64,000 bases of DNA, taken from the NCBI GenBank assembly GCA_024123955.1, contig CP099652.1, positions 4,278,001 through 4,342,000 on the forward strand. The letters are read 5' to 3'. Under the pieces are notes generated by a model. It did no database searches. It saw only the letters and a list, made by a program, of their open reading frames with translations, and was not told where the DNA came from. A program made the translations under genes and the position numbers. The stretch comes from Oxalobacteraceae bacterium OTU3CINTB1 (GTDB lineage: Bacteria > Pseudomonadota > Gammaproteobacteria > Burkholderiales > Burkholderiaceae_D). Of the stretch, positions 4,470 to 38,402 are shown in pieces. How positions within the stretch are numbered: position 1 is the first letter of the stretch; every line of letters begins with the position of its first letter.

Positions 4470-4504
4470 GGGAGGTGTCCGATAATTGATTGCAGGGAAT
4501 TGCA

Positions 4505-4533
4505 ATTATATTATCACGATTAGCATATGTATA
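4505..4533 (-). promoter_or_regulatory. Candidate sigma70 promoter of the PEP-CTERM gene
   Basis: On the minus strand a perfect -10 TATAAT (4510-4505) lies 17 bases from TATACA (4533-4528), a 4/6 match to the -35 box. A 7-base inverted repeat TTAGCAT/ATGCTAA (4520-4526 and 4534-4540) overlaps the -35 box and could be an operator. It separates this gene from the end of the pilus operon at 4567. Confidence 0.45.
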
Positions 4534-18037: not shown

Positions 18038-18217
18038 ACCCGCTCCTAGATGAGACAAAACGCGCCGCTACTAATGCCGCACGACAACTTGCGGCCATTC
18101 TAGTGCAGATTACCCCACTTCCCCAATGCCAAGCTCGCCTATCTGCACAGGATGTCGCTTTCTTCGCACGAATGCGCTACAGTTGTGGTTCGTTTCCTGT
18201 GGCCACTATTCCCTTTC
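18038..18217. other. Divergent intergenic region between clusters A and B
   Basis: This 180-bp spacer separates two long operons read outward (mshE to the left, the ABC ATPase to the right), so promoters for both should lie here. The ribosome site of mshE (AGGAGC) is clear. I see no convincing paired -35/-10 boxes and no strong inverted repeat. Confidence 0.5.
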
Positions 18218-18934
18218 ATGACCGTACCTGCGCTGCGCCTGCAACAAGTTGTTCAACGCTATGGCCACACCAGCGTGCTGCGCGGCGTGAATCTGGAACT
18301 GCAACCGGGAGAATGCTTCGGCCTGGTGGGCGTGAACGGCGCCGGCAAGACCAGCCTGATCAAATGCGTGCTCGATTTTTGCGCGCTCGACGGCGGCAGC
18401 ATCGACATCTTCGGCCAGCCGCACCACCGCCCCGCCAGCCGCCAGCCGCTGGGCTTTCTGCCGGAACGCTTCACGCCGCCGTACTACCTGACCGGCGCCG
18501 ACTTCATCCGCTATCTGCTGACCCTGCAAGGCCTGCGCTACGATGCCGCGGAAGTCGGCGCGATGATGCGCGCGCTCGACCTCGACCCCGACGCGCTCAA
18601 TCGCACCGTGCGCGGCTATTCCAAAGGCATGACGCAAAAGCTGGGCCTGGCCGCCTGCCTGCTCGCGCGCAAGCCCCTCTATATATTGGACGAGCCGATG
18701 AGCGGCCTCGATCCAAAGGCCCGCGCGCTGTTGAAAGAGCAACTGCGCAGCCTTCACCGCGCCGGCAGCACGCTGTTCCTGACCTCGCACGCGCTGGCCG
18801 ATGTCGACGAGCTGTGCGACCGCATGGCCATTCTGCATGACGGCCGGATCCGTTTTAGCGGCACGCCGGCGGAATGCCGCGCGCAATACGGCGCCGCCAG
18901 CCTGGAGCAAGCCTTCCTGGCCTGCATCGCGTGA
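18218..18934 (+). CDS. ABC transporter ATPase, first gene of cluster B
   Basis: A 238-residue ABC-type ATPase. Walker A GVNGAGKT at 38-45, signature YSKGMTQKLGLA (the variant typical of ABC-2 exporters), Walker B LYILDEP with DP downstream, and switch His in LTSHAL. Its partner is evidently the permease at 30707-31477 in the same cluster. In Myxococcus xanthus, PilH and PilI form an ABC transporter inside a type IV pilus locus, so a role in filament biogenesis or export is plausible but inferred. The ATG at 18218 lies next to the conserved N-terminus. Confidence 0.85.
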   Translation: MTVPALRLQQVVQRYGHTSVLRGVNLELQPGECFGLVGVNGAGKTSLIKCVLDFCALDGGSIDIFGQPHHRPASRQPLGFLPERFTPPYYLTGADFIRYLLTLQGLRYDAAEVGAMMRALDLDPDALNRTVRGYSKGMTQKLGLAACLLARKPLYILDEPMSGLDPKARALLKEQLRSLHRAGSTLFLTSHALADVDELCDRMAILHDGRIRFSGTPAECRAQYGAASLEQAFLACIA

Positions 18935-18939
18935 GCAGC

Positions 18940-19878
18940 ATGTACCAATCCCATTTCCAGTTGCGCGAATCGCCATTCGGCATCACGCCGAACCCGGCCT
19001 TTTTCTATTCCGGCAACACGCGCGGCGAAATCCTCGAAGCGTTGCTGTATGCGGTGTGCCACGGCGAAGGCATCATCAAGGTGACCGGCGAGGTGGGCGC
19101 CGGCAAGACCATGTTGTGCCGCATGCTGGAGAGCCGGCTGCCGCCGCATATCGAGGTGATCTATCTGGTCAACCCGAATCTGAACCCGGTCGATGTCCAG
19201 TTCGCGATCGCCGCCGAACTGGGCCTGCCGACGCGCGGCTTCCGGGTTGACGAGGTCCAGCGCGGCCTGCACGCGCATTTGATCGCGCGCCACAGCGAGG
19301 GCCAGCAGGTCGTGCTGCTGGTCGAGGAGGCGCAGGCGATGCCGCTCGAAACGCTGGAAGCGATTCGCCTGCTGACCAATCTGGAAACGGCGCGCAGCAA
19401 GCTGCTGCAGATCGTGCTGTTCGGCCAGCCGGAGCTTGACCAGCATCTGGCGCTGTCGAGCATGCGCCAGCTGCGCGAGCGCATCACGCACAGCTTCCAC
19501 GTGCCGGCCATGGAACCGGCGCTGGTGGCAGAGTTCCTCGACTTCCGCCTGCGCGCGGCCGGCCACGACGGCCCGGCCGTCTTCAGCGCGGCTGCCGCCA
19601 AAATGATCGGCGACAGTTCGGAGGGCATCGTCCGCCGCATCAACATCCTGGCCGACAAGGCGCTGCTGGCAGCCTTCGCCGACGACGCCGGCGTGGTCGA
19701 CAAGCGCCATGTGCGCGCGGCGATCAGCGAATCGCATTTTGGCCGTGGCGGCGCGGACACATTGTTAAATCGGCGCGCGGGCCGCTTCTTTAATCGGACT
19801 GTTGCAATCGGGTGTTTGCTGGGGCTTTTAATTGGAGCAATATGCTTGAGCGTCCTTGCGGTGGCACCGAATTTGTAA
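18940..19878 (+). CDS. MshM/ExeA-like ATPase of cluster B
   Basis: A 312-residue paralogue of MshM (MYQSHFQLRESPFGITPNP). Walker A is GEVGAGKT at about 50-57. Walker B reads VVLLVEEAQ, with Glu where the first acidic residue is normally Asp. A membrane helix lies near the C-terminus (about 288-309). Alternatively translation begins at GTG 18931, which overlaps the preceding TGA. Probably assists insertion of the cluster B secretin, the next gene. Confidence 0.8.
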   Translation: MYQSHFQLRESPFGITPNPAFFYSGNTRGEILEALLYAVCHGEGIIKVTGEVGAGKTMLCRMLESRLPPHIEVIYLVNPNLNPVDVQFAIAAELGLPTRGFRVDEVQRGLHAHLIARHSEGQQVVLLVEEAQAMPLETLEAIRLLTNLETARSKLLQIVLFGQPELDQHLALSSMRQLRERITHSFHVPAMEPALVAEFLDFRLRAAGHDGPAVFSAAAAKMIGDSSEGIVRRINILADKALLAAFADDAGVVDKRHVRAAISESHFGRGGADTLLNRRAGRFFNRTVAIGCLLGLLIGAICLSVLAVAPNL

Positions 19879-19940
19879 GATCATGCTAGCTATATTGCAT
19901 ATGCACAACATCCTGCGTTCCCCCCGGGCCGGAAGAAACA

Positions 19941-21812
19941 ATGAATAAATTCGCCTTGACCATCGTCCCCGTGGCTTGCAGTGTGTTACTTGGCGCCTGC
20001 GCCACGCGTACGCTGCCGACCTCGCCCGCCCACGTTAGCGAAGCACCGCGCCCGGGCGGCTCGATTCCGGAGCCGGTGAGGCAAAGCGCGGTACTGCCGC
20101 CGCCCAAGCCGGCCGCCAAGGTCGAGACCTACAGCGTCACCGTGCACAAGGTACCGGTGCAATCGCTGCTGTTCGCGCTGGCGCGCGACGCCGGCCTGAA
20201 CGTGGACGTCCATCCCAGCATCGAGGGCATGGTCACGCTCAACGCGCTGGACCAGACCCTGCCCCAGCTGCTGAGCCGCATCCAGCGCCAGGTCGATATG
20301 CGTTATGAAATCAACAATGGCATTTTATCGGTGCTGCCGGACACGCCGGAGTGGCGCAACTACAAGATCGACTACGTCAACATTGCGCGCAGCACCAGCA
20401 GCAGCGTCAATATCGCGACGCAGATCTCCACCACCGGCGGCGGCAGCGGCGCCTCCAACCCGGTCGGCGCGACCGCGTCGGGCGGCGGCAACACGGGCGG
20501 CAACACCCAATCGTCGAACAGCAACAGTGGCACCGCCAACGGCAGCAACAACTCGACGACGGTGGTGAACAACCGTTCCGACAACAATTTCTGGTTCACG
20601 CTGGAAAAGAATATCCGCGACATGCTGCGCAACTCCAACCTGGCCGACAACCCGGTCGATCCACTGGCCGGCATCCAGCCGAACATCCAGCAAAGCACGG
20701 CGGACGGCTCGCAACAACCCGGCCGTGGCCAGCAGACGCCGGCGGTTCTTGACGGCGGCGCCTTCGGCCAGTCGCGCACCAATAACACCCGTACCAACTC
20801 CGTCATCGTCAACGCCGAGGGCGGCTTGATCGCGGTGCGCGCGACCAGCCGCCAGCACGAGAAAATCCGCGAGTTCGTCGATATCGTGCTGGGCGCCGCC
20901 AAACGCCAGGTGCTGATCGAGGCGACTGTGATCGAGGTCCGCCTCAACAACAATTACCAGCAGGGCATCAACTGGTCGACCTTGTCGCGTTCGGGCCGCC
21001 TGGGCATGACCCAGGGCCAGGTCGGCACCACCACGCTGCCGAGCGCTGTCAATCCCGGCAGCAGCCAAGGCATTTTCCTGCTGAAATATAACAATCCCGT
21101 CACCAGCCTGGGCAGCATCGCCGCGACGCTGGAGCTGCTTGAATCGTTCGGCAAGGTCAAAGTACTGTCGAGTCCAAAAATCAGCGTGATGAACAACCAG
21201 ACGGCGCTGCTCAAGGTGGTCGACAACAATGTCTTCTTCTCGATCAAGGTCACGCCGGCCGTGCTGGGCCTGAACGGCACGCCGACCTCGCCGGCCACCT
21301 ACGAATCGAAGCTGGAGACGGTGCCGGTCGGCTTTGTCATGAGCGTGACGCCGCAGATCGCCGACAATGACGACGTCACCATCAACGTGCGCCCGACCAT
21401 CACGCGCATAGTCGGCACCGTCGAGGATCCGAATCCGGCGCTGGCCGCCGCCAACGTGCACAGCCTCGTGCCGGTGATCCAGGCGCGGGAGCTGGAATCG
21501 CTGATGAAAGTACCGAGCGGACAGATCGCCGTGATGGGCGGGCTGATGCAAGACTCGGTCGACAACGCCAAGGATTCAGTGCCGTTGCTGGGCAGCATGC
21601 CGGTGATCGGTGACCTGTTCTCGTTCCGTAACGAGAAAAGCACCAAGACCGAACTGGTGATCTTCATGCGCCCGATCGTGGTCAAGGACGCCAGCGTCAA
21701 CGGCGACTACAAGGATTACCGCTACCTGCTGCCGGGCGAAAAGCCGGACAACGAACCCTACCCCGTGCCGACAGCCCCCCCTGCCCCCACCACCAACGGG
21801 AACGGATCATGA
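19941..21812 (+). CDS. MshL-like secretin of cluster B
   Basis: A 623-residue lipoprotein secretin. Lipobox LLGAC after a short signal peptide, an STN-like domain (VTVHKVPVQSLLFALARDAG, about 65-130), and a Gly/Asn/Ser linker (about 165-215). The secretin core (about 300-590) carries VLSSPKISVMNNQTALLKVV and the end motif TELVIFMRPIVVKD. The outer-membrane channel of the second machine. It overlaps the next gene by 4 bases. Confidence 0.88.
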   Translation: MNKFALTIVPVACSVLLGACATRTLPTSPAHVSEAPRPGGSIPEPVRQSAVLPPPKPAAKVETYSVTVHKVPVQSLLFALARDAGLNVDVHPSIEGMVTLNALDQTLPQLLSRIQRQVDMRYEINNGILSVLPDTPEWRNYKIDYVNIARSTSSSVNIATQISTTGGGSGASNPVGATASGGGNTGGNTQSSNSNSGTANGSNNSTTVVNNRSDNNFWFTLEKNIRDMLRNSNLADNPVDPLAGIQPNIQQSTADGSQQPGRGQQTPAVLDGGAFGQSRTNNTRTNSVIVNAEGGLIAVRATSRQHEKIREFVDIVLGAAKRQVLIEATVIEVRLNNNYQQGINWSTLSRSGRLGMTQGQVGTTTLPSAVNPGSSQGIFLLKYNNPVTSLGSIAATLELLESFGKVKVLSSPKISVMNNQTALLKVVDNNVFFSIKVTPAVLGLNGTPTSPATYESKLETVPVGFVMSVTPQIADNDDVTINVRPTITRIVGTVEDPNPALAAANVHSLVPVIQARELESLMKVPSGQIAVMGGLMQDSVDNAKDSVPLLGSMPVIGDLFSFRNEKSTKTELVIFMRPIVVKDASVNGDYKDYRYLLPGEKPDNEPYPVPTAPPAPTTNGNGS

Positions 21813-23458
21813 GCTTACTGATGCAGGCGCTAAAGAAGGCCGAGCGCGCCAAACAAAGCTCGGCGGTCGAGGACGAGGTGGACAAGCCGTCGGAGGAATT
21901 CGACGCGGTGCTGGCGCTCACGCCCGAGCCGGCGCCGCACGCCGCCGTGCCGCCAGCCAAGCGCGAGCTCAGTCTGGACCTGGAGCCGATGGCCGAATTC
22001 AGCCTGGAACCGCTGGCGCCCGAAGCGCCGGCCGCCAGCCTGACGCCGCGTCCCTCGCCAAGCCCGTTGCCACCGCCCAGCGATCATCTGGACGCCGGCC
22101 TGACGTTCGACCTGACGCCCGATCCGTCCGCGCCGGTGGCGCCAACACCGGCCGCGGCGGCGCCGCAGCGCGCGCAGCCGCAAGCGCCGCTGTCGGCCAC
22201 GGCCTCCGCACCGACCGCCAGCGCCGCCGCCGGGCAAAATACCCGGGCCAACGCCCAGAACAACGACGGCACCAACGCCGCCAGGCCCACGGCGGGCGCC
22301 AGAGCATCCGCCCCGGCCAAACCGCAGTCCAGCGACAAGGCCGCCGGCAAGCCGCGCGGCGCGGCGCGCGCCCGCGCGGCGGCCGCCACGACAGACGAGC
22401 CGGTCGGCATGGATCCGGAACGCCTGCGCCTGATCGGTCTGCTTTCGATACTGGCGCTGATCGTCCTCGGCTTCGGCTATTACTATTGGCAGGCGGTGGT
22501 CGCACCCGGCGCCGGTTCACGCCTGCCGCCGGTGCCGATGCCGCCTCCGGGCGCTACCGGCGCCACGCCGGTGCAGGTGATCGGCGCCGCCGCCGGCCAA
22601 CCTGATCCAGGCGGCCAGCCAGCCACCGGCGCCCCCGGCGGCTTCGCCGACCCGATGGCGGTCGATCCGAGCGGCAGCGCCATGCTGGCGCCGTCGGTCA
22701 ACCGTGGCGGCCGCGACGACCTGGAGCTGCGCCTGGCCCGTACCGAACAGGAACTGGCCGCCGCCCAGCAGGCGATCCAAACCCAGCTGGCAGCATCGAC
22801 GCCGCGCGCGGAACGACTGCCGCCCGTTGCCGCGCCCGACAACAATGCCGAGATCCGCGTCGCCCGCGCCGTGCAGCCGGCCAGGATCGCGCCGGCCGTG
22901 GAAACCGCTTATCAATCCTTCAGCAACGGCGACCTGCCCAACGCGCAAAAGCAGTACGAGTCCGCACTGCGCCAGGAACCGACCAGCCGCGACGCGCTGC
23001 TGGGCCTGGCGATGGTGCATACCCGCCAGAACCAGGGCGCGCAAGCGGCGTCGTATTACCTGCGCATGCTTGAACTCGATCCGAACGACTCCACCGCAGT
23101 CGCCGGCCTGGTGAGCATGCGCTCGGGCGACGCCGCCCAAAGCGAAGGCCGCCTCAAGGCCATCCTGACCACCAACCCGGAGGCCGGTCCGGCGCTGTTC
23201 GCGCTGGGCAACCTGTACGCGCAGCAGAACCGCTGGTCCGACGCCCAGCAAACCTTCTTCCGCGCCTACAGCGCCTCGCCCGACAATCCGGACTACGCCT
23301 ACAACCTGGCCATCGGCCTGGACCGTCTGAACCAGGGCCGGCTCGCGCTGACCTACTATCAGCGCGCGCTGGTGCTGTCGCAGGACAAGGCGGCTGCCTT
23401 CGACCAGAAGGCGCTGCGCCTGCGCATGCACGAGCTGGGCGCTCCGGCGCAGCCATAA
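21809..23458 (+). CDS. MshN-like TPR membrane protein of cluster B
   Basis: A 549-residue protein starting MSLLMQALKKAERAK, like MshN. A long Pro/Ala-rich disordered N-terminal half leads to one membrane helix (about 212-229, LIGLLSILALIVLGFGYYYW). The C-terminal periplasmic part is built of TPRs (ALRQEPTSRDALLGLAMVHT, ALFALGNLYAQQ). Longer than its cluster A counterpart (379 residues) because of the linker. Confidence 0.78.
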   Translation: MSLLMQALKKAERAKQSSAVEDEVDKPSEEFDAVLALTPEPAPHAAVPPAKRELSLDLEPMAEFSLEPLAPEAPAASLTPRPSPSPLPPPSDHLDAGLTFDLTPDPSAPVAPTPAAAAPQRAQPQAPLSATASAPTASAAAGQNTRANAQNNDGTNAARPTAGARASAPAKPQSSDKAAGKPRGAARARAAAATTDEPVGMDPERLRLIGLLSILALIVLGFGYYYWQAVVAPGAGSRLPPVPMPPPGATGATPVQVIGAAAGQPDPGGQPATGAPGGFADPMAVDPSGSAMLAPSVNRGGRDDLELRLARTEQELAAAQQAIQTQLAASTPRAERLPPVAAPDNNAEIRVARAVQPARIAPAVETAYQSFSNGDLPNAQKQYESALRQEPTSRDALLGLAMVHTRQNQGAQAASYYLRMLELDPNDSTAVAGLVSMRSGDAAQSEGRLKAILTTNPEAGPALFALGNLYAQQNRWSDAQQTFFRAYSASPDNPDYAYNLAIGLDRLNQGRLALTYYQRALVLSQDKAAAFDQKALRLRMHELGAPAQP

Positions 23459-23480
23459 GAAACATCACCCACCACTATCG

Positions 23481-25187
23481 ATGGCAGAACACGCAAAACT
23501 CCCGCTCGGCAAACTGCTGATCCAAAAAGGCGTCATCAGCGAAGACCAGCTGCGCATCGCGCTGATCGAGCAAAAACGCAGCAACGAGCCGCTGGGGAAA
23601 CTGTTGATCACGCTGGGCTTCGTCACCGAGGCCACGGTGCGCATGGCGCTGTCGGAAAACCTGAACCAGCAAAGCGCCGACCTCACCAGTCTGGTGGTCG
23701 ACGCCATCGCCCTCAAGCTGATCCCCAAGGAAGTGGCCAAGCGCTACCGCGTGTTCCCGATCGTCTACGAGCGCCAGACCGACAACCTGATCCTGGCCAT
23801 GTCCGACACCAGCAACATCGTCGCGCTCGACCAGATCAGCGCCATGCTGGTCAAAGGCATCACCATCAGCCCGCTGCTGGTGAACGAATCGGACATCTCG
23901 CGCGCCATCGACCAGTACTACGGCTTCGAGCTGTCGATCGACGGCATCCTGCACGAAATCGAAACGGGCGAGGTGAACTACGCCAGCCTGGGCACCACCT
24001 CCGACGAGTACAGCCAGCCGATGGTGCGCCTGATGGACGCCATCCTGGCCGACGCCGTGCAAAACAGCGCCTCCGACATCCACTTCGAGCCGGAGCAATC
24101 GTTCCTGCGGATCCGCTACCGCATCGACGGCATCCTGCGCCAGATCCGCAGCCTGCACAAATCGTACTGGCCGGCGATGGCCGTGCGCCTCAAAGTCATG
24201 TCGAACATGAACATCGCCGAGACGCGCGCGCCGCAGGACGGCCGCATCTCGATCAAATTCTCGGGCCGGCAGATCGACTTCCGCGCCTCGGCGCAGCCGA
24301 CCACGCACGGCGAGAACTTCGTGCTGCGCGTGCTCGACCGTCAAAAGGGCCTGGTGCCGCTCGACGGCCTGGGCTTGGGCGAGGCCGAACTGAGCCTGCT
24401 AAAGCTGATGATCGCCCGCCCCGACGGCGTGATCCTGGTGACCGGTCCGACCGGTTCCGGCAAGACCACCACCCTGTATTCGATCCTGAACCACATCAAC
24501 ACCGAGAGCGTCAACATCATGACGCTGGAAGACCCGGTCGAATATCCGATGAACATGATCCGCCAGACGTCGGTCAACGAATCGGCCAAGATGGGCTTTG
24601 CCGAGGGCATCCGCTCGATGATGCGGCAAGACCCCGACATCATCCTGGTCGGCGAGATCCGCGACAAGGAAACCGCCGAGATGGCCTTCTCGGCCGCGAT
24701 GACCGGCCACCAGGTGTATTCGACCCTGCACACCAACTCGGCGATCGGCTCGATCCCGCGCCTGCTCGACATCGGCGTCGTGCCCGACATCATGGCCGGC
24801 AACATCATCGGCATCATCGCCCAGCGTCTGGTGCGCAAGCTGTGCACGGCATGCCGCGAACCGCATATCGCCGACGATGTCGAACGCCGCCTGCTGGGAC
24901 TGCCGGAGACGGCCGGTCCGCAAACTTTGTACCGCGCGGTCGGCTGCGACCATTGCGCGCACCAGGGCTACAAGGGCCGCATCGCCATCATCGAACTGCT
25001 GAAGATGACGCCGGCGCTGGACGAAATGGTGGCGCGCCGCGCCTCCTCGCGCGAGCTGAAGACGGCGGCCGCCAACAGCGGCTTCCACAGCCTGATCGAC
25101 GACGGCGTGCGCCGCGTGCTCGAAGGCGTGACCACATTGGAAGAAGTTGGACGCGTAGTGGACCTCACCGAAAGGCTGGCCAACTGA
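23481..25187 (+). CDS. MshE-like assembly ATPase of cluster B
   Basis: A 568-residue GspE-family motor. Walker A GPTGSGKT at 322-329, Walker B region DIILVGEIRD, and a zinc site of two CxxC pairs (KLCTACREP and GCDHCAHQ). The N-terminus keeps the two-part MshEN layout (LGKLLIQKGVISEDQL, LGKLLITLGFVTEATV), but both copies read PLG where MshE of cluster A has RLG and KLG. Cyclic di-GMP binding is therefore less certain here. Confidence 0.88.
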   Translation: MAEHAKLPLGKLLIQKGVISEDQLRIALIEQKRSNEPLGKLLITLGFVTEATVRMALSENLNQQSADLTSLVVDAIALKLIPKEVAKRYRVFPIVYERQTDNLILAMSDTSNIVALDQISAMLVKGITISPLLVNESDISRAIDQYYGFELSIDGILHEIETGEVNYASLGTTSDEYSQPMVRLMDAILADAVQNSASDIHFEPEQSFLRIRYRIDGILRQIRSLHKSYWPAMAVRLKVMSNMNIAETRAPQDGRISIKFSGRQIDFRASAQPTTHGENFVLRVLDRQKGLVPLDGLGLGEAELSLLKLMIARPDGVILVTGPTGSGKTTTLYSILNHINTESVNIMTLEDPVEYPMNMIRQTSVNESAKMGFAEGIRSMMRQDPDIILVGEIRDKETAEMAFSAAMTGHQVYSTLHTNSAIGSIPRLLDIGVVPDIMAGNIIGIIAQRLVRKLCTACREPHIADDVERRLLGLPETAGPQTLYRAVGCDHCAHQGYKGRIAIIELLKMTPALDEMVARRASSRELKTAAANSGFHSLIDDGVRRVLEGVTTLEEVGRVVDLTERLAN

Positions 25188-26389
25188 TGCCCCAATACTT
25201 CTACCGCGCGATGGACGCCGGCGGCCAGATCTCGCCCGGCAACATGGACGCCGCCAACGAGCCGGACCTGGAGCTGCGCCTGCACCGCATGGGCCTGGAC
25301 CTGATCGACTGCCGCGTCTCGCGCGCCAAGGTCGTGGCGTTGAAACGCGTCATCACCCGCCGCGACCTGATCAACTTCTGCTTCCACATGGAACAGCTGA
25401 CCGGCGCCGGCGTGCCCATCCTCGAAGGCTTGAACGACCTGCGTGAAAGCATCGACCACCCGCGCTTCCGCGAGATGATCACCGGCCTGATCGAAAACAT
25501 CGAGGGGGGCCAGCAACTGTCGGCCGCCTTGGCCGCGTATCCGGAAGTGTTCGACCTGACCTTCACCAGCCTGATCACCGCAGGCGAGCAAAGCGGCAAG
25601 CTGGCCGAGGTCTTCAAGAACCTGTCGGAAAGCCTGAAGTGGCAGGACGAGCTGGCCTCGCAGACCAAAAAGATCGTCATGTACCCCGCCGCCGTGGGCG
25701 TATTCGTCACCGCCGTCACCTTCTTCCTGATGATCTACCTGGTGCCGCAGCTGACGTCCTTCGTCAAAAACATGGGCAACACCCTGCCGCTGCACACCAA
25801 GGCGCTGATTTTCGTCTCCAACATCTTCATCGATTACTGGTACGTGCTGGTGGCGGTGCCGCTGATCGCCTTCTTCGTCGGCCGCGCCTGGCTGGCGCGC
25901 AGCGAGCAGGCGCGCTACGCCGCCGACGGCTTCAAGCTGCGCGTCTGGATGATCGGCCCGGTGCTGCACAAGATCATCCTGGCCCGCTTCGCCACCTTCT
26001 TCGCGATGATGTACGGCTCCGGCATCACCATCCTCGAATGCATCCGCCTGTCCGAAGGCATCGTCGGCAACCGCGTGGTCGCGGCCGGCCTGCGCCGCGC
26101 CGGCCAGCTGATCTCCGAGGGCCAGGGCATCACGGCGGCGTTCCAGCACACCGGCATCTTCCCGCCGCTGGTGATCCGCATGCTCAAGGTCGGCGAGACC
26201 ACCGGCGCGCTCGACGGCGCGCTGCGCAACGTCAGCTACTTCTACAACCGCGAAGTCAAGGAGATGATCGAGAAGGTGCAGGCGATGATAGAGCCGGCCA
26301 TGACCGTGATCCTCGGCGTGATGGTCGGCTGGATCATGCTGTCGGTGATGGGCCCGATTTACGACACGATCAGCAAGATCAGAACCTGA
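25187..26389 (+). CDS. MshG/GspF-like platform protein of cluster B
   Basis: A 400-residue protein with the duplicated T2SSF domain: FCFHMEQLTGAGVPILEGL and LITAGEQSGKLAEV in the first copy, FAMMYGSGITILECI and MLKVGETTGALDGAL in the second. Three membrane helices. The ATG shares its A with the stop of the upstream ATPase (TGATG), which shows tight coupling of motor and platform. Confidence 0.85.
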   Translation: MPQYFYRAMDAGGQISPGNMDAANEPDLELRLHRMGLDLIDCRVSRAKVVALKRVITRRDLINFCFHMEQLTGAGVPILEGLNDLRESIDHPRFREMITGLIENIEGGQQLSAALAAYPEVFDLTFTSLITAGEQSGKLAEVFKNLSESLKWQDELASQTKKIVMYPAAVGVFVTAVTFFLMIYLVPQLTSFVKNMGNTLPLHTKALIFVSNIFIDYWYVLVAVPLIAFFVGRAWLARSEQARYAADGFKLRVWMIGPVLHKIILARFATFFAMMYGSGITILECIRLSEGIVGNRVVAAGLRRAGQLISEGQGITAAFQHTGIFPPLVIRMLKVGETTGALDGALRNVSYFYNREVKEMIEKVQAMIEPAMTVILGVMVGWIMLSVMGPIYDTISKIRT

Positions 26390-26396
26390 GGCTGCC

Positions 26397-29959: not shown

Positions 29960-29981
29960 GCGCGCCCCCGAATCGACCAAC

Positions 29982-30707
29982 ATGACTTCTTATCCCTACA
30001 TGCATTCACGCCACCGACAATCCGGTTTTACCATCGTCGAAATCGCCATCGTCCTGCTGGTCGTCGGCCTGATGATCGGCGGTCTGGTGGCGCCGCTGTC
30101 GTCGCAACTGGAACAGCGCCGCGTGAGCGAGACCGTACGCGCCATGGACGAGGCCAAGGAGGCGCTGTTGGGCTTTTCCTTGCGCAACGGCTACCTGCCC
30201 TGCCCGGCCATCTCGGCCACCGACGGCCGCGAGGACCGCGCCGGCGCGGTCTGCAACAAACGCTTCGGCTACCTGCCGTGGGCAACCCTGGGCGTGGGCC
30301 GGCTCGACGGCTGGGGCCGCGTGCTGGCCTACAGCGTCACGCCGGCGTTCGCCGACAGCATCGCCTTTTTCACGCTCCTGACCAGGCGCGACATCACCAT
30401 CGCCACGCGCAACGCCGGCGGCGGCGACCTCGTGCCCGCCACCGACGTCGACGATATTCCGGCCGCGATCATGTCGTTCGGCCGCAACGGTTATGGCGGC
30501 ACCAGCGACCAAAACACCCGCATCCTCGACGCCGGCAACAACAACGTCGACGAAAAAACCAACCTGCAAAGCGGCGGCGTGGCGCTGATCAGCCGTCCGG
30601 CCAGCACCGACCCGCGCGGCGCCGGCGGCGAGTTCGACGACATCGTCACCTGGATCTCGCCCAACATCCTGTACAACCGCATGGTGGCGGCGCAAAAGTT
30701 GCCGTGA
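29982..30707 (+). CDS. Pseudopilin with Glu5
   Basis: A 241-residue prepilin: QSG-FTIVEIAIVLLVVGLMIGG with Glu at +5. It shares SATDGRE and YLPWATLG with the preceding gene, so the pair probably arose by duplication. Two Cys (LPCPAIS and AVCNKR) may form a disulfide. The stop overlaps the ATG of the ABC permease. Confidence 0.72.
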   Translation: MTSYPYMHSRHRQSGFTIVEIAIVLLVVGLMIGGLVAPLSSQLEQRRVSETVRAMDEAKEALLGFSLRNGYLPCPAISATDGREDRAGAVCNKRFGYLPWATLGVGRLDGWGRVLAYSVTPAFADSIAFFTLLTRRDITIATRNAGGGDLVPATDVDDIPAAIMSFGRNGYGGTSDQNTRILDAGNNNVDEKTNLQSGGVALISRPASTDPRGAGGEFDDIVTWISPNILYNRMVAAQKLP

Positions 30708-31477
30708 TGCGCACCCTGGCCGCCCTCACCATCGCCCGTTACACCCTGCTCGAAGCGCTGCGCAACCGGCTGCTGTGGTTGCTGCTCGTCATGGCGCTGG
30801 GCGCGGTCGGCGTCAGCGGCTTCCTGAATGAACTGGCGCTAACCGAGAGCCGGCAACTGCAGGCGGCGCTGCTTGGCGCGGTGCTGCGGCTGGCGGCGGT
30901 GTTTCTGATCGCCACCTTCGTCGTCACCAGCATGGTGCGCGAAGCCAACGACAAGGGACTGGAACTGCTGATGGCGCTGCCGCTGCCGCGCGCCGTGTAT
31001 TTGCTGGGCAAGCTGGCCGGCTTCGCCGCGCTGGCGGTGCTGCCGGCCGCGCTGTTCGGCGCGCTGGCGCTGTTTTTCGCGCCGCCGGCGCAGGCGGCGC
31101 TGTGGGCCGTGTCGCTGCTGTGCGAATGCTGGATCGTCGCCGCCTTCAGCCTGCTGTGCGTGCTGACCCTGAACCAGGTGCTGCCGGCGCTGGCCGCCGC
31201 CTTCGCTTTTTATCTGCTGGCGCGCGCCGTCGGCACGCTGCAATTGCTCGGCCACGGCGCCGGCGCCGCGCACAGCGCCGGCCAACAGGCGCTGGGCGCC
31301 GCCCTCGACGCCCTGGCGCTGCTGCTGCCGCACCTGGACCGCTTCACCCGCAGCGACTGGCTGGTCTACCACGACGGCGGCGCCGCCGACCTGGTGGCCA
31401 TCGCCGCGCAAACCGTCATTTACGTGGCGCTGATGGCGGCCGCCGGGTTGTTCGATTTGTACCGCAAGCAGATATGA
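30707..31477 (+). CDS. ABC-2 type permease of cluster B
   Basis: A 256-residue inner-membrane protein with about six helices (LLWLLLVMALGAVGVSGFLN; LAAVFLIATFVVTSMV; LAGFAALAVLPAALFGALAL and others). The cytoplasmic loop EANDKGLELLMALPLPRAVY is typical of ABC-2 exporter permeases. It has no ATPase domain and pairs with 18218-18934 at the start of the operon. Embedding it between pseudopilin and TPR genes with zero or 4-base overlaps argues for a shared job. Confidence 0.8.
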   Translation: MRTLAALTIARYTLLEALRNRLLWLLLVMALGAVGVSGFLNELALTESRQLQAALLGAVLRLAAVFLIATFVVTSMVREANDKGLELLMALPLPRAVYLLGKLAGFAALAVLPAALFGALALFFAPPAQAALWAVSLLCECWIVAAFSLLCVLTLNQVLPALAAAFAFYLLARAVGTLQLLGHGAGAAHSAGQQALGAALDALALLLPHLDRFTRSDWLVYHDGGAADLVAIAAQTVIYVALMAAAGLFDLYRKQI

Positions 31478-32232
31478 GCATGCGCGCACAGCTCAAGCCG
31501 GTGGGCGCGGTGCCGCGCGCGGTCTTCGCGCTGCTGGCGCTGACCCTGGTGCTGCAAATACTATGGCAGGCCGGCGCAGCGCCGCCGCGCGCGCGGGCCA
31601 GGGATTTGCCGCCGGCGCCGTCGCTGGCGGCGCTGCGGCTGGCGGCGCTCGGCGAGCCGGTGGCGCTGTCGAAACTGACGATGCTGTACGTGCAGGGTTT
31701 CGACGAGCAGGCCGGCATGAGCATCGCCTGGCGCGACCTCGACTACGGCAAGGTGGCGCTGTGGCTGCAACGCGTGCTGGAACTCGATCCGCACGGCCAA
31801 TATCCGCTGCTGGCGGCCAGCGAGGTGTACGGCGCGGTGGCCGATCCGGCGCGCGCGCGCGTCATGCTCGACTTCGTTTATGCCCGTTTCGCCGAGGACC
31901 CGAACCGGCGTTGGCCATGGATGGCGCACGCGGCGCTGGTCGCCAGGCACCGGCTGCACGACTTGCCGCTGGCGCGCCGCTACGCACAGGCGATCCGGCT
32001 GCGCGCGACCGGCCCGCAAGTGCCCGCGTGGGCGCGCGAAATGGAAGTGTTCATCCTGGAAGACATGAATGAGCTCGACAGCGCCCGCGCGCTGATCGGC
32101 GGCCTGTTGCGCGACGGTTTGATCACCGATCCGCACGAGCTGAAGTTTTTATCGGACCGGCTCGATCAACTGAATCATCCACTGGATCGATCAAACGGTA
32201 CGAACCGGCGCGACGGCGGTCCCAAGCCATAA
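31474..32232 (+). CDS. Membrane-anchored protein with helical repeats, unknown function
   Basis: A 252-residue protein: one N-terminal helix (AVFALLALTLVLQILWQAG), then helix-rich sequence with TPR-like pairs (VALWLQRVLELDPHGQYPLL, ALIGGLLRDGLITD). I do not recognise a named family. It overlaps the ABC permease stop by 4 bases and is the last gene of the contiguous cluster B run before the small gap at 32233, so it may be a scaffold or an accessory of the ABC transporter. Confidence 0.55.
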   Translation: MSMRAQLKPVGAVPRAVFALLALTLVLQILWQAGAAPPRARARDLPPAPSLAALRLAALGEPVALSKLTMLYVQGFDEQAGMSIAWRDLDYGKVALWLQRVLELDPHGQYPLLAASEVYGAVADPARARVMLDFVYARFAEDPNRRWPWMAHAALVARHRLHDLPLARRYAQAIRLRATGPQVPAWAREMEVFILEDMNELDSARALIGGLLRDGLITDPHELKFLSDRLDQLNHPLDRSNGTNRRDGGPKP

Positions 32233-32285
32233 ACCTTGCTGTAATATAGCATCCACATAGCAACACCCAAGAAAGGAAACACCCC

Positions 32286-32858
32286 ATGCGTACGCCCCCC
32301 CCGACCCTGTTGCGCCAACGCGGCTTTACCCTGGTTGAAATCGCCATCGTGCTCGTCATCATCGGTCTGCTGCTGGGCGGCGTGCTGAAGGGACAGGGCT
32401 TGATCGACAGCGCCCGCGTCAAGAATATCATCCAGCAATCGACGTCGCTGACGGCGGCCGTCAACGCCTACCAGGACAAGTTCCGCGCGCTGCCGGGCGA
32501 CGACGTGCAAGGCACCAGCCATGCGCCCGGCGCCACCGGCAACGGCAACGGCGACGGCCAGATCGCCGAATACCAGCTGGCGCCGCAGCATTTGGCGCTG
32601 TCGGGCTTCATCACCGGCTCGTTCAACGGCACCACCGACTTCATGACCAGCGCCCAGGGCGGCGCGGTCTATATCTACAACGACGTGGTCGGCGGGCGCG
32701 GCGGCAACGGCGTGCGGCTCGACAATCTGCCCGATTCGTTCGCCGAGCAGGTCGACAGCAAGCTCGATGACGGCAAGTTCAACACCGGCTCGGTGCGCGC
32801 GACCGGGCCATACACCAACGACGGCAGCGTCATCCAGCGCACGGCGTTGTTCTTCTAA
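32286..32858 (+). CDS. Pseudopilin, candidate major subunit of cluster B
   Basis: A 190-residue prepilin: QRG-FTLVEIAIVLVIIGLLLGG (Glu at +5), then KGQGLIDSARVKNIIQQ and a domain with ALPGDD. A strong ribosome site (AAGGAAA) precedes ATG 32286, and the 53-bp spacer upstream contains a -10-like TAATAT at 32242. Separate, strong expression would fit a major filament subunit, which is an inference. Confidence 0.7.
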   Translation: MRTPPPTLLRQRGFTLVEIAIVLVIIGLLLGGVLKGQGLIDSARVKNIIQQSTSLTAAVNAYQDKFRALPGDDVQGTSHAPGATGNGNGDGQIAEYQLAPQHLALSGFITGSFNGTTDFMTSAQGGAVYIYNDVVGGRGGNGVRLDNLPDSFAEQVDSKLDDGKFNTGSVRATGPYTNDGSVIQRTALFF

Positions 32859-32919
32859 CGTCAAGCCGGGTTACTATGCTCCTGCCAGCCTGATCCAACG
32901 GTCACCGGGAGCCCTACAC

Positions 32920-35900
32920 GTGCCAGCGCCAGACAAACCCAGTTCCCCCCTGCCGTCGATCCGCGCGCAGATCGCCCTGCTGGTGTTGGCGTGCGCTTTG
33001 CCGGCGGCGGTCGGTTTCGGCGCCGTGGTGCGGCAGTTCTACGGCCGCGAACGCGCCACCCTGATGGAGGACACGCGCCAGGCGGCGCGCATGGTGGCGG
33101 CCGCCATCGACCGCGACCTGATCCAGAGCGAGGGCGCGGCCGTGGCGCTGGCGACCTCGCCCAGCATCCGCGAAATCGACAAGGGCGCGCTGCGGGTCCA
33201 GGCCGGCGGCCTGCTGGGGCCGCAGTTTCCCGCGTCGCAATTTTTATTGAGCGACGAAACCGGCGGCGTGGCCATGCACGTCGGCGCGCCGCTGCCGGAA
33301 ACCTTCAACCAGGTCAACAACAGCAAGCGGCTGATGCCGCTGTTCCACACCGCCCGCCCGCAGTTGTCGATCATCTACGTGGCCGGCAGCGCCTTGTTGG
33401 CGGTCGACGTGCCGGTCTTCATCGACACCCACGTGGCCTACGCCATGACGGTGCTGCTCAAGCCGGACCGACTGGCGGCCATCCTGCGCGACGAGAAGAT
33501 CAAGCCGTACCAGTCGATGACCCTGTACGACGGCGATGGCACCATCGTGGCCCAGGCCGGCGGGCCGCGCCAGGTGCTGGGACAGCCGGCCGACGCCACC
33601 TTGCGCGCCCGCCTGCTGCAAGCGTCCGACGCGCTGCTGGTGACCGAGGACACCGAGGGCACGCCGGTCTATCTCAGCTATAGCCGCTCGCCCGCCAGCG
33701 GCGCCACCATCGCCATCGCCACGCCGCAGGCCAAGGCGCTGGAGGAATTGCTGCGCGCCGTCACCACCATCTCGCTGGCGATGGGCCTGGTGCTGCTGGC
33801 CGGCTTTTCGCTGGCATGGATGGTCGGCGGGCGCATCGCGCGCTCGGTGCGCGACCTGGTCGGCCCGGCCGAGGCGCTCGCCAGCGGCGCGCCGTTCACG
33901 CTGCAACCGATGAGTTTTCGCGAGGCCCAGGCGGTCGCCGACGCCTTCCACGCGCTCGAGGGCGACCTGCGGGCCCACCGCCACGAGCTGGAAAAGCTGG
34001 TCGACGAGCGCACCGCGCAGCTGGAAAAATCGCGCGCCCAGCTCGAAACCCTGTACGCCACCGCGCCGGTAGGCCTGAGCTACGTCGACAGCGAATTGCG
34101 GGTGATCCGCATCAACGACTACATGGCCGCGTTGAACGGCCAAAAAGTGGTGGCGCATCTGGGCCGCCACCTCAGCGACATGATCACCGACACCGGCGTG
34201 CGGCAAGGAGTGCTGGCCGATTACCGCACCGTGCTCGACACGGGCCGGCCGCTGACCGGCATCGAGCGCTCCGGCTACACGGCGGCCAACCCCAAACAGC
34301 TGTCGCACTGGGTGCTGAGCTACTACCCGCAGTTCGACCAGGACGGCAAGGTCAGCGCCATCACCAGCCTGCTGCTGGACGTGACCGACCAGAAGCGCGT
34401 CGCCGCCGAGCTGCTGCAGTCGCGCCAGCTGTTCAGCTCGGTCGTCGAGCACATGCCGGCGATGATCTTCCTCAAGCGCGCCGCCGACCTGCGCTACGAT
34501 ATGTTCAACCGCTACGGCGCCCTGCTGCTCGGCCACACCAGTGGCGAGCCGCTGATCGGCAAGAACGACTACGATTTCGTGCCGGCCGAGCAGGCCGAGC
34601 TCTACGCCATTGGCGACCGCGGCGTGCTGGCCTCGAACCCCGGCGAGATCACCGAGATCGCCGAGGAGCCGATCACCAACAGCGCCGGCCAGACGCGCTA
34701 CCTGACCACCCGCAAGGTGGCGCTGCGCGACGAACACGGCGTGGCCACCCACGTGCTGGGCATCGCGCTCGACATCACCGAGCGCAAGCAGGCCAAGGAG
34801 GCGCTGCGCGCCACCGTCGAGCGCCTCGGCGAGAGCGAACAATTCGTGCGCACCGTGACCGACAACCTGCCCGGCATGGTAGCCTACTGGGACGCCGGCC
34901 TGTGCTGCCGCTTCGCCAACCGCTACTTCCTCGAGTGGCACCAGATGAGCCCGGAGCAAATGATGGGCGCGCGCATGGCCGACGTGCTCGGCGAGCGGCA
35001 ATACGCCGACAATGCGCCCTACGTACAGGCCGCGCTCAACGGCGAGCCGCAGGGCTTCGCCAGCGAGCTGGCTTGGCCTTCCGGCCAGCTGAGCCATACC
35101 TGGGTCAACTACATCCCCGATGTCGGCCAGTACGGCGAGGTACGCGGTTTCTTCGTGCTGGTGTCGGATGTGACCGAACTGAAGGAGACCGAACTGCACC
35201 TGCAGGAATTGAACGTCGAACTGGTGCAGGCGCGCGACCGCGCCGAGGCCGCCAGCCGCGCCAAGAGCGAGTTCCTGGCCAATATGAGCCACGAGATCCG
35301 CACGCCGATGAACGCCATCATCGGCCTGGCGCGGCTGTTGCAGGAGGCCGGGCTGGGGCCGCGCGAGCGCGGCTACCTGGACAAGATCCAGCTGGCCACG
35401 CACTCACTGCTGAGCCTGGTGAACGACGTGCTCGACTTCTCGCGGGTCGAGGCCGGCCAGCTCGCGCTCGAGCACGCGAACTTCCAGCTCGAACAGATCC
35501 TCGACAGCATCAGCGTGCTCATCAGCGGCAGCGCCTCCGACAAGGGCGTCGAACTGGTGTTCGACATCGACCCGAGCCTGCCCAACGAACTGGCGGGCGA
35601 CCCGATGCGGCTGCAGCAGGTGCTGCTCAACTTGCTGAGCAACGCCGTCAAGTTCACCGCCGAGGGCGAGGTGGTGCTGTCGGTGCGGCGGGCCGCCACG
35701 GCGCGCCCGGACGAGCGCGCGCTACTCATCGAGTTCCGCGTGCGCGACACCGGCGTCGGCATCCCCGCCGAGCAGCAGGCCCACATTTTCGACGCCTTCT
35801 CGCAGGCCGACAGCAGCACCAGCCGCAAGTTCGGCGGCGTCGGGCTGGGGCTGGCGATCTGCCGCCAGCTGGCCGACATGATGGGCGGCGCGATCGAGGT

Positions 35901-37488
35901 GCGCAGCGAGGCCGGCCACGGCGCCGAGTTCCTGTTCGCCTGCCCGTTCGAATGCCTGGCCGCGCCGGCGGCGCCGACCGTCCCGCTGGCGGCCGCCGCG
36001 TTGTCGCTGCTGATCGTCGACGACAGCGCCAGCGTGCGCGCCGCGCTGCAACGGGCCTGCGCCCACCTGGGCTGGCGCGCCGCGGTCGCCGCCGACGCCC
36101 AGGCGGCGCTGGCCATGCTGCACGAGAGCCATCAATCGGGACACCCCTACGACCTGTTGTTGCTTGACCGCGACATGCCCGGCATGGACGGGCCGGCGCT
36201 GCTGCAAAACATCCACGCCAGCATGGCGCTGCCGCTGCCGCCGGTGCTGATGATGGTCAACGAGCACCTGGCGGCGGCCGAGGCCCAGCACGCCGGCAGC
36301 CTGGGACTGGCCGGCATCCTGTCCAAGCCGGTGAGCCCGGCGCGGCTGCTCGAACGCGTCGCCGCGCTGATGGCCCGCGGCACTGCCGACGGCGGCGACG
36401 GCGAGGACGGCGCCGCGGCGGCGCCGCTGTCGCCGCTACACGGCCGCCTTGCCGGCATGCGCATCCTGCTGGTCGAGGACAACGAGATCAACCAGGAAGT
36501 GGCGCAATACATCCTGCTGCACGCCGGCGCCACCGTGGACGTGCGCGCCAACGGCCAACTGGCGGTGGACCTGCTGACGGCCGAACCGACGCGCTATGAC
36601 GTGGTGCTGATGGATGTGCAGATGCCGGTGCTCAACGGCTATGACGCCACGGCGGCGTTGCGCGCGGCCGGCCTGACGTTGCCGGTGGTGGCGATGACCG
36701 CCAACGTCATGGAGGACGACCGCCGCCGCGCCCAGGCCGCCGGCATGGACGCCCACGTCGCCAAGCCGATCGACGTCGAAGACCTGATCGCCGTCCTGAC
36801 CGGGGTGATGCGCTCGGCACCGCCGGTGCCGGCCGCCACGGCGCCCCGGTCCCCGGCCGAGGCGGTCCCGGCGCCGGCCACGGCCGCCGGCGCGCCCGCC
36901 ACCGCCCTGCCCGGCATCGACGTCGACGCCGCGCTGGCACGCCTGGGCGGCGACCGCAGCGCCCTGGACGCGCTGCTGCGCCGGTTCGAGCAATCGCAGG
37001 GCGGCACGGTCGACGAGGTGCGCGCGCTGCTGGCGGACGGACGGCGCCAGCAGGCAGCGCAGGCACTGCACCGGCTGCGCGGCGTGGCCTCCAACCTGGG
37101 CGCGGGCGACGTTTCCCGGCTAAGTTCGCTTGCAGAAAACGCCCTTCACCAGGACAATGACGCCGACGATGGCGCGCTCAATGCCGCGCTCGACCAGCTG
37201 GCGACGGCGCTCGGCGTGGTCACCGCGTCCGTGCGCGGCATGGCGGCGGCGGACGCCGATATGCCCGGAGGCAACACCGATGCGTCCGATTTACCGCAAA
37301 AGCTGGCGGAGCTTCAAGGTTTGCTTCAGAATAACAACTTGAAAGCTTTGGAGCACTTCCGGGAGCTGCGGCCCGCCCTCCCAGCGACGGCGCAAGCGGT
37401 CGCCCTGGCGGAAGCAGTTGAAACACTCAATTTCAGCACTGCGGCTAAACTGGTGGAGATTATGTTGCAGCGAAAGGAAAGTGCATGA
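32920..37488 (+). CDS. Hybrid sensor histidine kinase with PAS, two REC and HPt domains
   Basis: A 1522-residue membrane kinase. GTG 32920 is chosen for the GGGAG 8 bases upstream. Layout: TM1 (about 12-32), periplasmic sensor, TM2 (about 283-305), linker, three PAS domains (about 375-490, 505-625, 640-760), HisKA with the phospho-His in MSHEIRTPM (about 790), HATPase (N box NLLSNAVKFT, about 905; DTGVGIP), REC1 (from 1029; acceptor in LLLDRDMPG), REC2 (from 1181; acceptor in VLMDVQMP) and C-terminal HPt with His in LHRLRGVASNLGA (about 1383). Its stop overlaps the start of the diguanylate cyclase by 4 bases, which is the evident output partner. Confidence 0.88.
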   Translation: MPAPDKPSSPLPSIRAQIALLVLACALPAAVGFGAVVRQFYGRERATLMEDTRQAARMVAAAIDRDLIQSEGAAVALATSPSIREIDKGALRVQAGGLLGPQFPASQFLLSDETGGVAMHVGAPLPETFNQVNNSKRLMPLFHTARPQLSIIYVAGSALLAVDVPVFIDTHVAYAMTVLLKPDRLAAILRDEKIKPYQSMTLYDGDGTIVAQAGGPRQVLGQPADATLRARLLQASDALLVTEDTEGTPVYLSYSRSPASGATIAIATPQAKALEELLRAVTTISLAMGLVLLAGFSLAWMVGGRIARSVRDLVGPAEALASGAPFTLQPMSFREAQAVADAFHALEGDLRAHRHELEKLVDERTAQLEKSRAQLETLYATAPVGLSYVDSELRVIRINDYMAALNGQKVVAHLGRHLSDMITDTGVRQGVLADYRTVLDTGRPLTGIERSGYTAANPKQLSHWVLSYYPQFDQDGKVSAITSLLLDVTDQKRVAAELLQSRQLFSSVVEHMPAMIFLKRAADLRYDMFNRYGALLLGHTSGEPLIGKNDYDFVPAEQAELYAIGDRGVLASNPGEITEIAEEPITNSAGQTRYLTTRKVALRDEHGVATHVLGIALDITERKQAKEALRATVERLGESEQFVRTVTDNLPGMVAYWDAGLCCRFANRYFLEWHQMSPEQMMGARMADVLGERQYADNAPYVQAALNGEPQGFASELAWPSGQLSHTWVNYIPDVGQYGEVRGFFVLVSDVTELKETELHLQELNVELVQARDRAEAASRAKSEFLANMSHEIRTPMNAIIGLARLLQEAGLGPRERGYLDKIQLATHSLLSLVNDVLDFSRVEAGQLALEHANFQLEQILDSISVLISGSASDKGVELVFDIDPSLPNELAGDPMRLQQVLLNLLSNAVKFTAEGEVVLSVRRAATARPDERALLIEFRVRDTGVGIPAEQQAHIFDAFSQADSSTSRKFGGVGLGLAICRQLADMMGGAIEVRSEAGHGAEFLFACPFECLAAPAAPTVPLAAAALSLLIVDDSASVRAALQRACAHLGWRAAVAADAQAALAMLHESHQSGHPYDLLLLDRDMPGMDGPALLQNIHASMALPLPPVLMMVNEHLAAAEAQHAGSLGLAGILSKPVSPARLLERVAALMARGTADGGDGEDGAAAAPLSPLHGRLAGMRILLVEDNEINQEVAQYILLHAGATVDVRANGQLAVDLLTAEPTRYDVVLMDVQMPVLNGYDATAALRAAGLTLPVVAMTANVMEDDRRRAQAAGMDAHVAKPIDVEDLIAVLTGVMRSAPPVPAATAPRSPAEAVPAPATAAGAPATALPGIDVDAALARLGGDRSALDALLRRFEQSQGGTVDEVRALLADGRRQQAAQALHRLRGVASNLGAGDVSRLSSLAENALHQDNDADDGALNAALDQLATALGVVTASVRGMAAADADMPGGNTDASDLPQKLAELQGLLQNNNLKALEHFRELRPALPATAQAVALAEAVETLNFSTAAKLVEIMLQRKESA

Positions 37489-38402
37489 GTTGGACCGATC
37501 TGGCCAGGAATGGACGCATACTCGTGGTGGACGACGCCATGGAGAACATCCAGATCCTGCACCATGCGCTGCGCGACGAACAGGAAGTGCTGTTCGCCCT
37601 CGACGGCGAAAAGGCGCTCGACATCGCGCTGGCCCAGCAACCGGACCTGATCCTGCTCGACGCCGTCATGCCCGGCATGGACGGCTACGCCGTCTGCGGC
37701 GCGCTGCGCGCCTCGCCCCGTCTGCAGGACATCCCGATCATCTTCGTCACCGCCCTCAGCCAGCCCGAGGACGAGACCCGCGCGCTGGAGGCCGGCGCGG
37801 TCGACTTCATCAGCAAACCGTTCAACATCGCCGTGGTGCGCGCGCGCGTGCGCAGCCAGCTGACCATCAAGCGCCAGGCCGACGCCATGCGCGAGCTGAG
37901 CCTGACCGACGGCCTGACCGGCGTGGCCAACCGCCGCCACTTCAACGACACCATCGACGCCGAATGGCGCCGCTGCGCCCGCGCCGGCCTGCCGCTGTCG
38001 GTGATCATGATCGACATCGACCACTTCAAGCTCTACAACGACCACTACGGCCACCAGGCCGGCGACGCCTGCCTGCAGCAAATCAGCGCGGCGATGAAGG
38101 GATGCGCCTCGCGCCCGCAGGATTTGCTGGCCCGCTACGGCGGCGAGGAGTTCATCCTGCTGCTGCCGCAGGAAGGCCCCGAGGGCACGCAGGTGGTCGC
38201 CAGCCGCATCCTTGACGAAGTGCGCAGGCTCAACCTGGCGCACGCGGCCTCGCCGACGGCGCCCTACGTGTCGATCAGCATGGGCCTGGCGACGGCGATG
38301 CCGCCGCTCGACAGCCAGGACTCCATCGCCGTGGTGCGCGCCGCCGACGCCCGCCTGTACGTCGCCAAGCAGGCCGGCCGCAACCGCTACTTCGCCGACT
38401 GA
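37485..38402 (+). CDS. Response-regulator diguanylate cyclase (REC-GGDEF)
   Basis: A 305-residue protein: REC domain (acceptor D59 in LILLDAVMPG, Lys in FISKPF) joined to a GGDEF domain. The active site is GGEEF at 219-223, and the inhibitory site RPQD lies exactly five residues before it, so product feedback is likely. It makes cyclic di-GMP when phosphorylated, presumably through the kinase upstream. It sits directly after cluster B, whose neighbouring cluster A motor carries an MshEN c-di-GMP domain. Confidence 0.9.
   Translation: MSWTDLARNGRILVVDDAMENIQILHHALRDEQEVLFALDGEKALDIALAQQPDLILLDAVMPGMDGYAVCGALRASPRLQDIPIIFVTALSQPEDETRALEAGAVDFISKPFNIAVVRARVRSQLTIKRQADAMRELSLTDGLTGVANRRHFNDTIDAEWRRCARAGLPLSVIMIDIDHFKLYNDHYGHQAGDACLQQISAAMKGCASRPQDLLARYGGEEFILLLPQEGPEGTQVVASRILDEVRRLNLAHAASPTAPYVSISMGLATAMPPLDSQDSIAVVRAADARLYVAKQAGRNRYFAD

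Follow-up and report, generated by a model that had tools for sequence, protein, structure and literature searches.

The DNA analysed here (the window) is a stretch of 64,000 nucleotides from Oxalobacteraceae bacterium OTU3CINTB1 (contig CP099652.1, positions 4,278,001 to 4,342,000). At 18218–32858 its + strand holds a tight unit of 14 genes, in which a predicted type IV pilus machine of the mannose-sensitive haemagglutinin (MSH) type is interleaved with a three-gene ATP-binding cassette (ABC) transporter. The first gene encodes the ABC ATPase, while the permease and a membrane-anchored tetratricopeptide repeat (TPR) protein are encoded side by side between two pilin-like proteins, p2 and p3. 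Judged from their distribution among genomes, these three genes (the trio) behave as one unit and depend on the machine, and the permease–TPR half nearly always lies just upstream of p3. Since its three genes are acquired and lost jointly and remain tied to the machine, the trio probably has a working role in building the filament. An earlier note on this DNA had recognized the ATPase and permease as a pair, which stands, but had overlooked the third gene, that of the TPR protein (31480–32232).

Distribution of the trio and the machine across genomes

Four profiles were used: A1 for the TPR protein, A2 for the permease, A3 for the GspL-like protein that serves as marker of the machine, and A4 for the ATPase. 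The samples contained one genome per species, many of them drafts. Among 300 genomes of the order (E ≤ 1e-3 for the TPR and GspL-like proteins, E ≤ 1e-10 for the permease), the TPR gene was found in 72, the permease in 73 (two of these hits being weak and distant from any TPR gene) and the marker in 154. TPR gene and marker occurred together in 66 genomes, the TPR gene only in 6, the marker only in 88 and neither in 140. The marker frequency is then 66/72 with the TPR gene against 88/228 without it (Fisher p = 1e-16, a value that ignores relatedness). The corresponding counts in a class sample of 229 genomes, where the marker was called at E ≤ 1e-15, were 34, 2, 14 and 179, giving frequencies of 34/36 and 14/193 (Fisher p = 6e-27, likewise ignoring relatedness).

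The earlier note had proposed that the ABC pair and the pilus machine are functionally linked, and had made this link depend on how often each occurs in relatives without the other. The pair without the pilus genes is rare, as the marker frequencies among TPR-positive genomes indicate (66/72 and 34/36). The pilus genes without the pair are common: no TPR gene was found in 88 of the 154 marker-positive genomes of the order. Because the machine so often occurs alone, the trio counts as a pilus-committed accessory and not as a core part. We nevertheless retain the link despite this one-way result, since the ATPase and TPR/permease genes co-vary at least 10 times on a tree of the machines, and we read the dependence as running in one direction, from the transporter to the machine.

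The co-variation was traced with the ATPase profile, for which counted hits scored at least 210 bits and the other hits listed at E ≤ 1e-50 scored at most 191 bits. At >200 bits the ATPase was present in 69 of the 72 TPR-positive genomes, against 4 of 80 marker-positive, TPR-negative genomes (78 plus G009 and G006, discussed below; 10 weak marker hits of the 88 were left out of the ATPase and p3 searches). The TPR-positive genomes without it are G042, which is 68% complete, and G071 and G260, whose contigs start at the secretin gene or at exeA, the gene that follows the ATPase. The four with the ATPase and no TPR gene (G233, G248, G293 and G323) are draft assemblies in 110 to 810 contigs, and they belong to two genera that have the trio in other members. 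ATPase and TPR gene agree in 145 of 152 genomes, all seven exceptions being drafts. In each of the 69 genomes with both genes on one contig, permease and TPR gene are neighbours, separated by −12 to 473 bp.

On a tree of 72 machines, built by a quick method with long branches flagged and from a non-random set of fetched loci, the state of the trio changes at least 10 times, a count that assumes several states at contig ends. With those rows omitted, ATPase and TPR states were equal in 61 of 61 rows with checked states and 10 of 10 independent pairs were concordant (sign test p = 0.002), a result that handles relatedness for ATPase against TPR gene only and not for transporter against machine. 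In the genus g77 the pieces lie far apart. G218 carries the ATPase, the machine and permease–TPR–p3 at three sites hundreds of kb from one another on one contig, and in G142 the ATPase and permease are on separate contigs; G249 has the machine and p3, and all three genes of the trio are absent.

A search of 61 genomes also gave marker matches in 49, the window's genome included, and the loci of the other 48 were examined, 34 of which are from the same genus. ATPase, permease and TPR gene are all at the locus in 24 of these 34. Seven more are cut by contig ends, the G009 and G006 loci have none of the three genes, and in G002 the ATPase is absent and the contig stops short of the permease site. 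Where the trio is present its positions are constant, the ATPase being the first gene and permease and TPR gene lying between p2 and p3, and the genus loci rule out chance as the source of the gene arrangement. For the pilin-like gene p1, by comparison, tblastn found nothing in 11 of the 34 genus loci whose sequence covers its place. The stretch ahead of exeA measures 160 bp in G009 and 39 bp in G006, against 778–967 bp in six ATPase-bearing relatives, and p2 and p3 are separated by 4 and 3 bp, respectively, against 1461–1677 bp in relatives. In both, the trio is absent at two sites ∼11 kb apart with the intervening machine intact, the absence being genome-wide for the ATPase and at the locus for permease and TPR gene. 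A further locus, L070 of genome G020, had the GspL-like gene matched in two pieces and repeated partial matches to exeA, secretin and MshN, which suggests a frameshift or local disruption.

Members of the TPR family are labelled, where the source names them, as hypothetical, uncharacterized or tetratricopeptide repeat proteins (best 120 of 6655 matches); the closest named carriers are Duganella, Rugamonas and Pseudoduganella, which suggests that the window comes from a Duganella-like bacterium.

Organization and class of the machine

All of the parts named in the earlier note (secretin, motor, platform, pilin-like proteins and ABC pair) were located on the + strand within 18218–38402. From the ATPase to p3, adjacent genes overlap or are at most 62 bp apart, an arrangement consistent with one transcription unit. 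The ATPase (18218–18934, 238 aa, with an alternative ATG upstream at 18152) matched PF00005 at 1.7e-21, and its catalytic motifs appear intact in the alignment (Walker A NGAGKT, signature YSKGM, Walker B LDEP, H-loop SH). The permease (30707–31477, 256 aa) has six hydrophobic segments and matched PF12698 at 5e-7, its 29.5 bits falling below the cut-off of 31.6. Together the two fit what is expected of an ABC-2 exporter, with the ABC2 Pfam models just under cut-off. The permease gene, earlier counted as the eleventh, is the twelfth in our count, and the separation of the two ABC genes, previously put at 11.8 kb, measures 11,772 bases from the end of one to the start of the other. For the TPR protein (31480–32232) there was no NCBIfam or Pfam match; its structure model (pLDDT 84) has a single N-terminal helix at residues 13–32 followed by helical repeats.

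Between these genes lie those of the machine. An MshM/ExeA-type AAA ATPase, exeA (18940–19878; PF13401, 2.1e-26; TIGR03015, 208 bits, below the cut-off of 324.5), is followed by an MshL-type secretin (19941–21812; PF00263, 4.1e-36) and an MshN-like protein (21809–23458) matched by TPR models and with a single hydrophobic segment. The MshE-type extension motor (23481–25187; PF00437, 5e-128, 427 bits) has an N-terminal c-di-GMP motif, predicted from matches to NF053729 (65.8 bits, cut-off 38) and MshEN (56.2 bits, cut-off 23.1), and the MshG/GspF-type platform protein (25187–26389) matched PF00482 at 2e-49 and TIGR02120 at 288.8 bits, below the cut-off of 424. Three genes without Pfam matches come next: the GspL-like marker, in the MshI position (26397–27980, 527 aa), a protein assigned to the GspM/MshJ position by place and one hydrophobic segment (27977–28669, 230 aa), and one assigned to the MshK position by place (28666–29217, 183 aa). 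The three pseudopilins reported earlier were recovered as p1 (29186–29959), p2 (29982–30707; PF07963, 6.5e-5) and p3 (32286–32858; PF07963, 3.7e-7). The first of them had no Pfam match and was recognized by hydropathy and its N-terminal sequence only, which lacks Glu5; we take it to be of the GspK/PilX type.

By sequence matches, this gene set qualifies as an MSH-type type IV pilus machine under the published MSH model, which, as far as its description was available, asks for at least three of mshA, E, G, L and M and four genes in all; the fit was judged from Pfam and NCBIfam matches in place of the model's own profiles. The MshG platform (PF00482) and the MshM ATPase (PF13401) are both matched in the set. 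Among the secretin models matched by the window secretin, TIGR02519 (MshL) scores highest, at 249.4 bits against a cut-off of 250.2, and two relatives score 251.0 and 242.7. By its PF07963 match p3 belongs to the type IV pilins, and a match to an MshA chain in PDB is limited to profile positions 4–24 (E = 0.07). The earlier note had placed the system outside MSHA, type IV pili and type II secretion systems (T2SS) alike. That view finds no support here, with the secretin at the MshL cut-off, the motor carrying a c-di-GMP motif of the MshE type and the genes fitting the MSH model. A T2SS was considered and rejected (secretin TIGR02517, 153.6 against a cut-off of 351.35; motor TIGR02533, 519.7 against 630.25), and so was a type IVa pilus (PilQ TIGR02515, 105.6 against 284.35; PilB TIGR02538, 525.9 against 675.65).

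Downstream of p3 on the + strand are a hybrid sensor histidine kinase with PAS, HisKA, two receiver and Hpt domains (32971–37488, start approximate) and a receiver-GGDEF diguanylate cyclase (37485–38402; PF00990, 161 bits). Upstream, and divergent from the 14-gene unit, is a separate MSHA-type cluster on the − strand (∼4.6–18.06 kb), so the unit was rightly called a second machine; the motors of the two clusters are 38% identical. Beside the MSHA cluster, at 1719–4505 on the − strand, lies a gene for a large Gly/Ala-rich protein with a PEP-CTERM sorting tail.

The surroundings differ in loci from other families of the order (L087, L204, L205, L110 and L108), where flanking gene families were verified in one locus each. 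There the ATPase is divergent from mla genes (verified for MlaF, MlaE and MlaD in L204), and kdsD-lptC-lptA-lptB-rpoN comes after p3, at times with a Kef-type gene in between (verified in L087). The other-family loci viewed also carry two further genes, one for a sigma-54 response regulator located between ATPase and exeA, the other, divergent, for a kinase-like protein located ahead of the permease. Both positions are empty in the window, where the hybrid kinase and GGDEF regulator come after p3.

The pilin p3 and the proposed role of the transporter

The gap between TPR gene and p3 is 48–325 bp in 67 of the 68 genomes that have both on one contig, and 1868 bp in the remaining one. The p3 family was found in 144 of 152 genomes with the marker and/or the TPR gene (70/72 TPR-positive; 74/80 marker-positive, TPR-negative); of the 140 genomes with neither, the first 80 were searched and 2 had it. 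Since p3 tracks the machine across genomes, it is probably the machine's main pilin, which the transporter joins in a subset. At the more distant loci L166 and L184, permease, TPR gene, p3 and ATPase are packed together as a group of four genes with the machine not alongside, and at L171 and L179 machine genes were not found within 10 kb, L179 having TPR–p3 without the permease. At L166 (7907–12348) a T2SSE-family ATPase, presumably PilT/PilU-like, directly precedes the quartet, and the MSH-type machine genes searched for are absent within 10 kb. Genome G154 has nine p3-family matches on contigs C12 and C73 (partly L109).

Taking the genomics of the trio together with what has been reported of PilG, PilH and PilI in Myxococcus, we hold it most likely, with confidence no better than even, that this is an MSH-type machine with a dedicated accessory trio beside p3, and that the trio acts in a pilin-linked role like that of PilG–PilH–PilI. 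The ATPase-driven permease would act on the pilin or on an immediately neighbouring step, candidates being release from the inner membrane, quality control and supply to the platform, and the TPR protein would serve as an adaptor. The motor would be activated by cyclic di-GMP from the cyclase encoded nearby. Because the motor has a c-di-GMP motif and a cyclase gene ends the unit, filament extension is likely to be under c-di-GMP control, by analogy with the MshE family, and the receiver-GGDEF protein is a possible source of the c-di-GMP. A more specific proposal, which we put forward tentatively and think rather unlikely in this exact form, is that the transporter directly lifts or checks the hydrophobic helix of the membrane pilin before the platform builds that pilin into the filament, with the TPR protein as hand-over adaptor, and that MSH-type machines and the Myxococcus type IVa pilus (T4aP) have acquired or kept the same solution.

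Several observations weigh against a pilin-linked role. The TPR gene is absent from 75 of 141 marker-positive genomes of the order even when 13 weak marker hits are removed from the 88 of 154, and p3 is retained in 74 of the 80 TPR-negative genomes, so the machine and p3 are generally independent of the trio. The p3 of a trio-negative relative in the genus (L066) is 81% identical to that of the window. On the general view, as in a review that treats prepilin transport, Sec inserts prepilins with no ABC transporter involved. The trio also occurs where the machine was not found. Eight TPR-positive genomes lack the marker; G180, G343 and G405 among them keep the secretin and G042 is the incomplete genome mentioned above. 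The other four (G095, G120, G239 and G277, 95–98% complete) have TPR gene, permease and ATPase, with marker and secretin not found in these draft assemblies, which have 110 to 150 contigs each; exeA of G239 is near a contig end. In G095 (L087), exeA is directly followed by p1, as though the block from secretin to MshK had been excised. G277, of the same genus, likewise retains the trio, with secretin and GspL-like marker not found. The trio-only state in these two reflects either real loss or assembly collapse.

The explanation that ranks next after a pilin-linked role, a possible one to which we give clearly less weight, is the earlier note's idea of export: the trio would send out a small molecule such as a lipid or glycan, with which the filament is decorated or the nearby envelope conditioned. 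The ATPase profile, compared with solved structures, fits best the nucleotide-binding domains of ABCA-type phospholipid transporters and then NosF, the cluster is flanked in other families by mla (phospholipid) genes and by kdsD-lptC-lptA-lptB-rpoN, and an optional trio is what decoration would lead one to expect. However, mla and lpt are housekeeping loci that indicate location only, no glycosyltransferase or lipid-modifying families were matched within the shared unit, and the permease's sole hint among solved structures is PmtD, a named exporter of phenol-soluble modulins (E = 0.003).

That the trio is no transporter in practice but a complex of the FtsEX or NosDFY kind, which signals or transmits force and uses ATP to gate or tune the machine through the TPR protein, seems improbable. 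This reading would suit a TPR protein with a single predicted membrane helix and helical repeats, a type of fold often seen in proteins that bind others, and NosF is among the nearest solved relatives of the ATPase, but the permease resembles a plain six-segment ABC-2 unit. Still harder to credit is a passenger role, in which the transporter is itself unrelated cargo, kept close to the pilus genes through shared regulation or inheritance. The machine frequently lacks the transporter, and the recurring neighbourhood in other families favours co-inheritance; against this stand the correlated tree changes, at least 10, with 10/10 pairs concordant, the absence of the trio at two sites ∼11 kb apart from the otherwise intact machines of G009 and G006, and the joint presence or absence of far-apart pieces in G218, G142 and G249.

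The loci offer a natural experiment, in which closely related machines occur with and without an ABC transporter, its state changes at least 10 times on the tree and the partner pilin is named. An unstudied TPR protein family gains a process, and environmental genera are offered in which the role of the transporter is testable.

Comparison with known systems

With the MSHA system the machine has in common an MshL-type secretin, MshM, an MshN-like protein, MshE with its c-di-GMP motif and MshG. It differs in its GspL-like protein, which is 527 aa long against 314 aa for the PilM-like one of the neighbouring MSHA cluster, in having another pilin family and in the ABC transporter. With T2SS it shares a GspL/GspM-like inner membrane pair and pseudopilin-like proteins, but secretin and motor here are far under the T2SS cut-offs. 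The main text of a survey of the superfamily (PMC6668835) does not contain the term ‘ABC transporter’.

MSH-like clusters have been described in Sideroxydans ES-1 and Gallionella ES-2 (PMC3770913), and by that description, in the part available, they are likewise rearranged MSH genes in betaproteobacteria. An ABC transporter is not mentioned for them in that part of the paper, whereas one is present at the machine here. At a Gallionellaceae locus, L148, permease, TPR gene and p3 adjoin the machine; its ATPase was not seen.

For the transporter there is a parallel in Myxococcus xanthus, where PilI, PilH, PilG and PilA are encoded in one operon (PMC3546991, in the part available). As the earlier note had suggested in pointing to PilH and PilI, the make-up is the same: a single pilin is grouped with the ATPase and permease of an ABC transporter and with one further, accessory protein, a likeness seen at the level of composition. 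The PilGHI type of gene grouping is found in the window, with permease, TPR gene and p3 contiguous and the ATPase first in the same unit. Permease lengths are also alike, since a pilI deletion reaching codon 250 is described in the accessible portion of PMC5544727 and the permease here has 256 aa. Neither the permease nor the TPR protein had a match in NCBIfam, which says little on kinship with PilG or PilI.

In the sections of the literature available to us, PilGHI are given as necessary for ‘pilus assembly and pilus subunit (PilA) export’ (PMC3924187) and termed essential for pilin translocation (PMC3724824), while a 2018 review of myxobacterial pili, in the portion seen, states that supporting experimental data are lacking for PilGHI as ABC transport (PMC6060248). 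The trio bears on a question that PilGHI also pose, namely why a type IV pilus would need an ABC transporter. The two systems differ in that the machine is of the MSH type here and a T4aP in Myxococcus, the accessory here is a TPR protein, the ATPase usually stands apart as the first gene of the operon, and many related machines have no transporter module.

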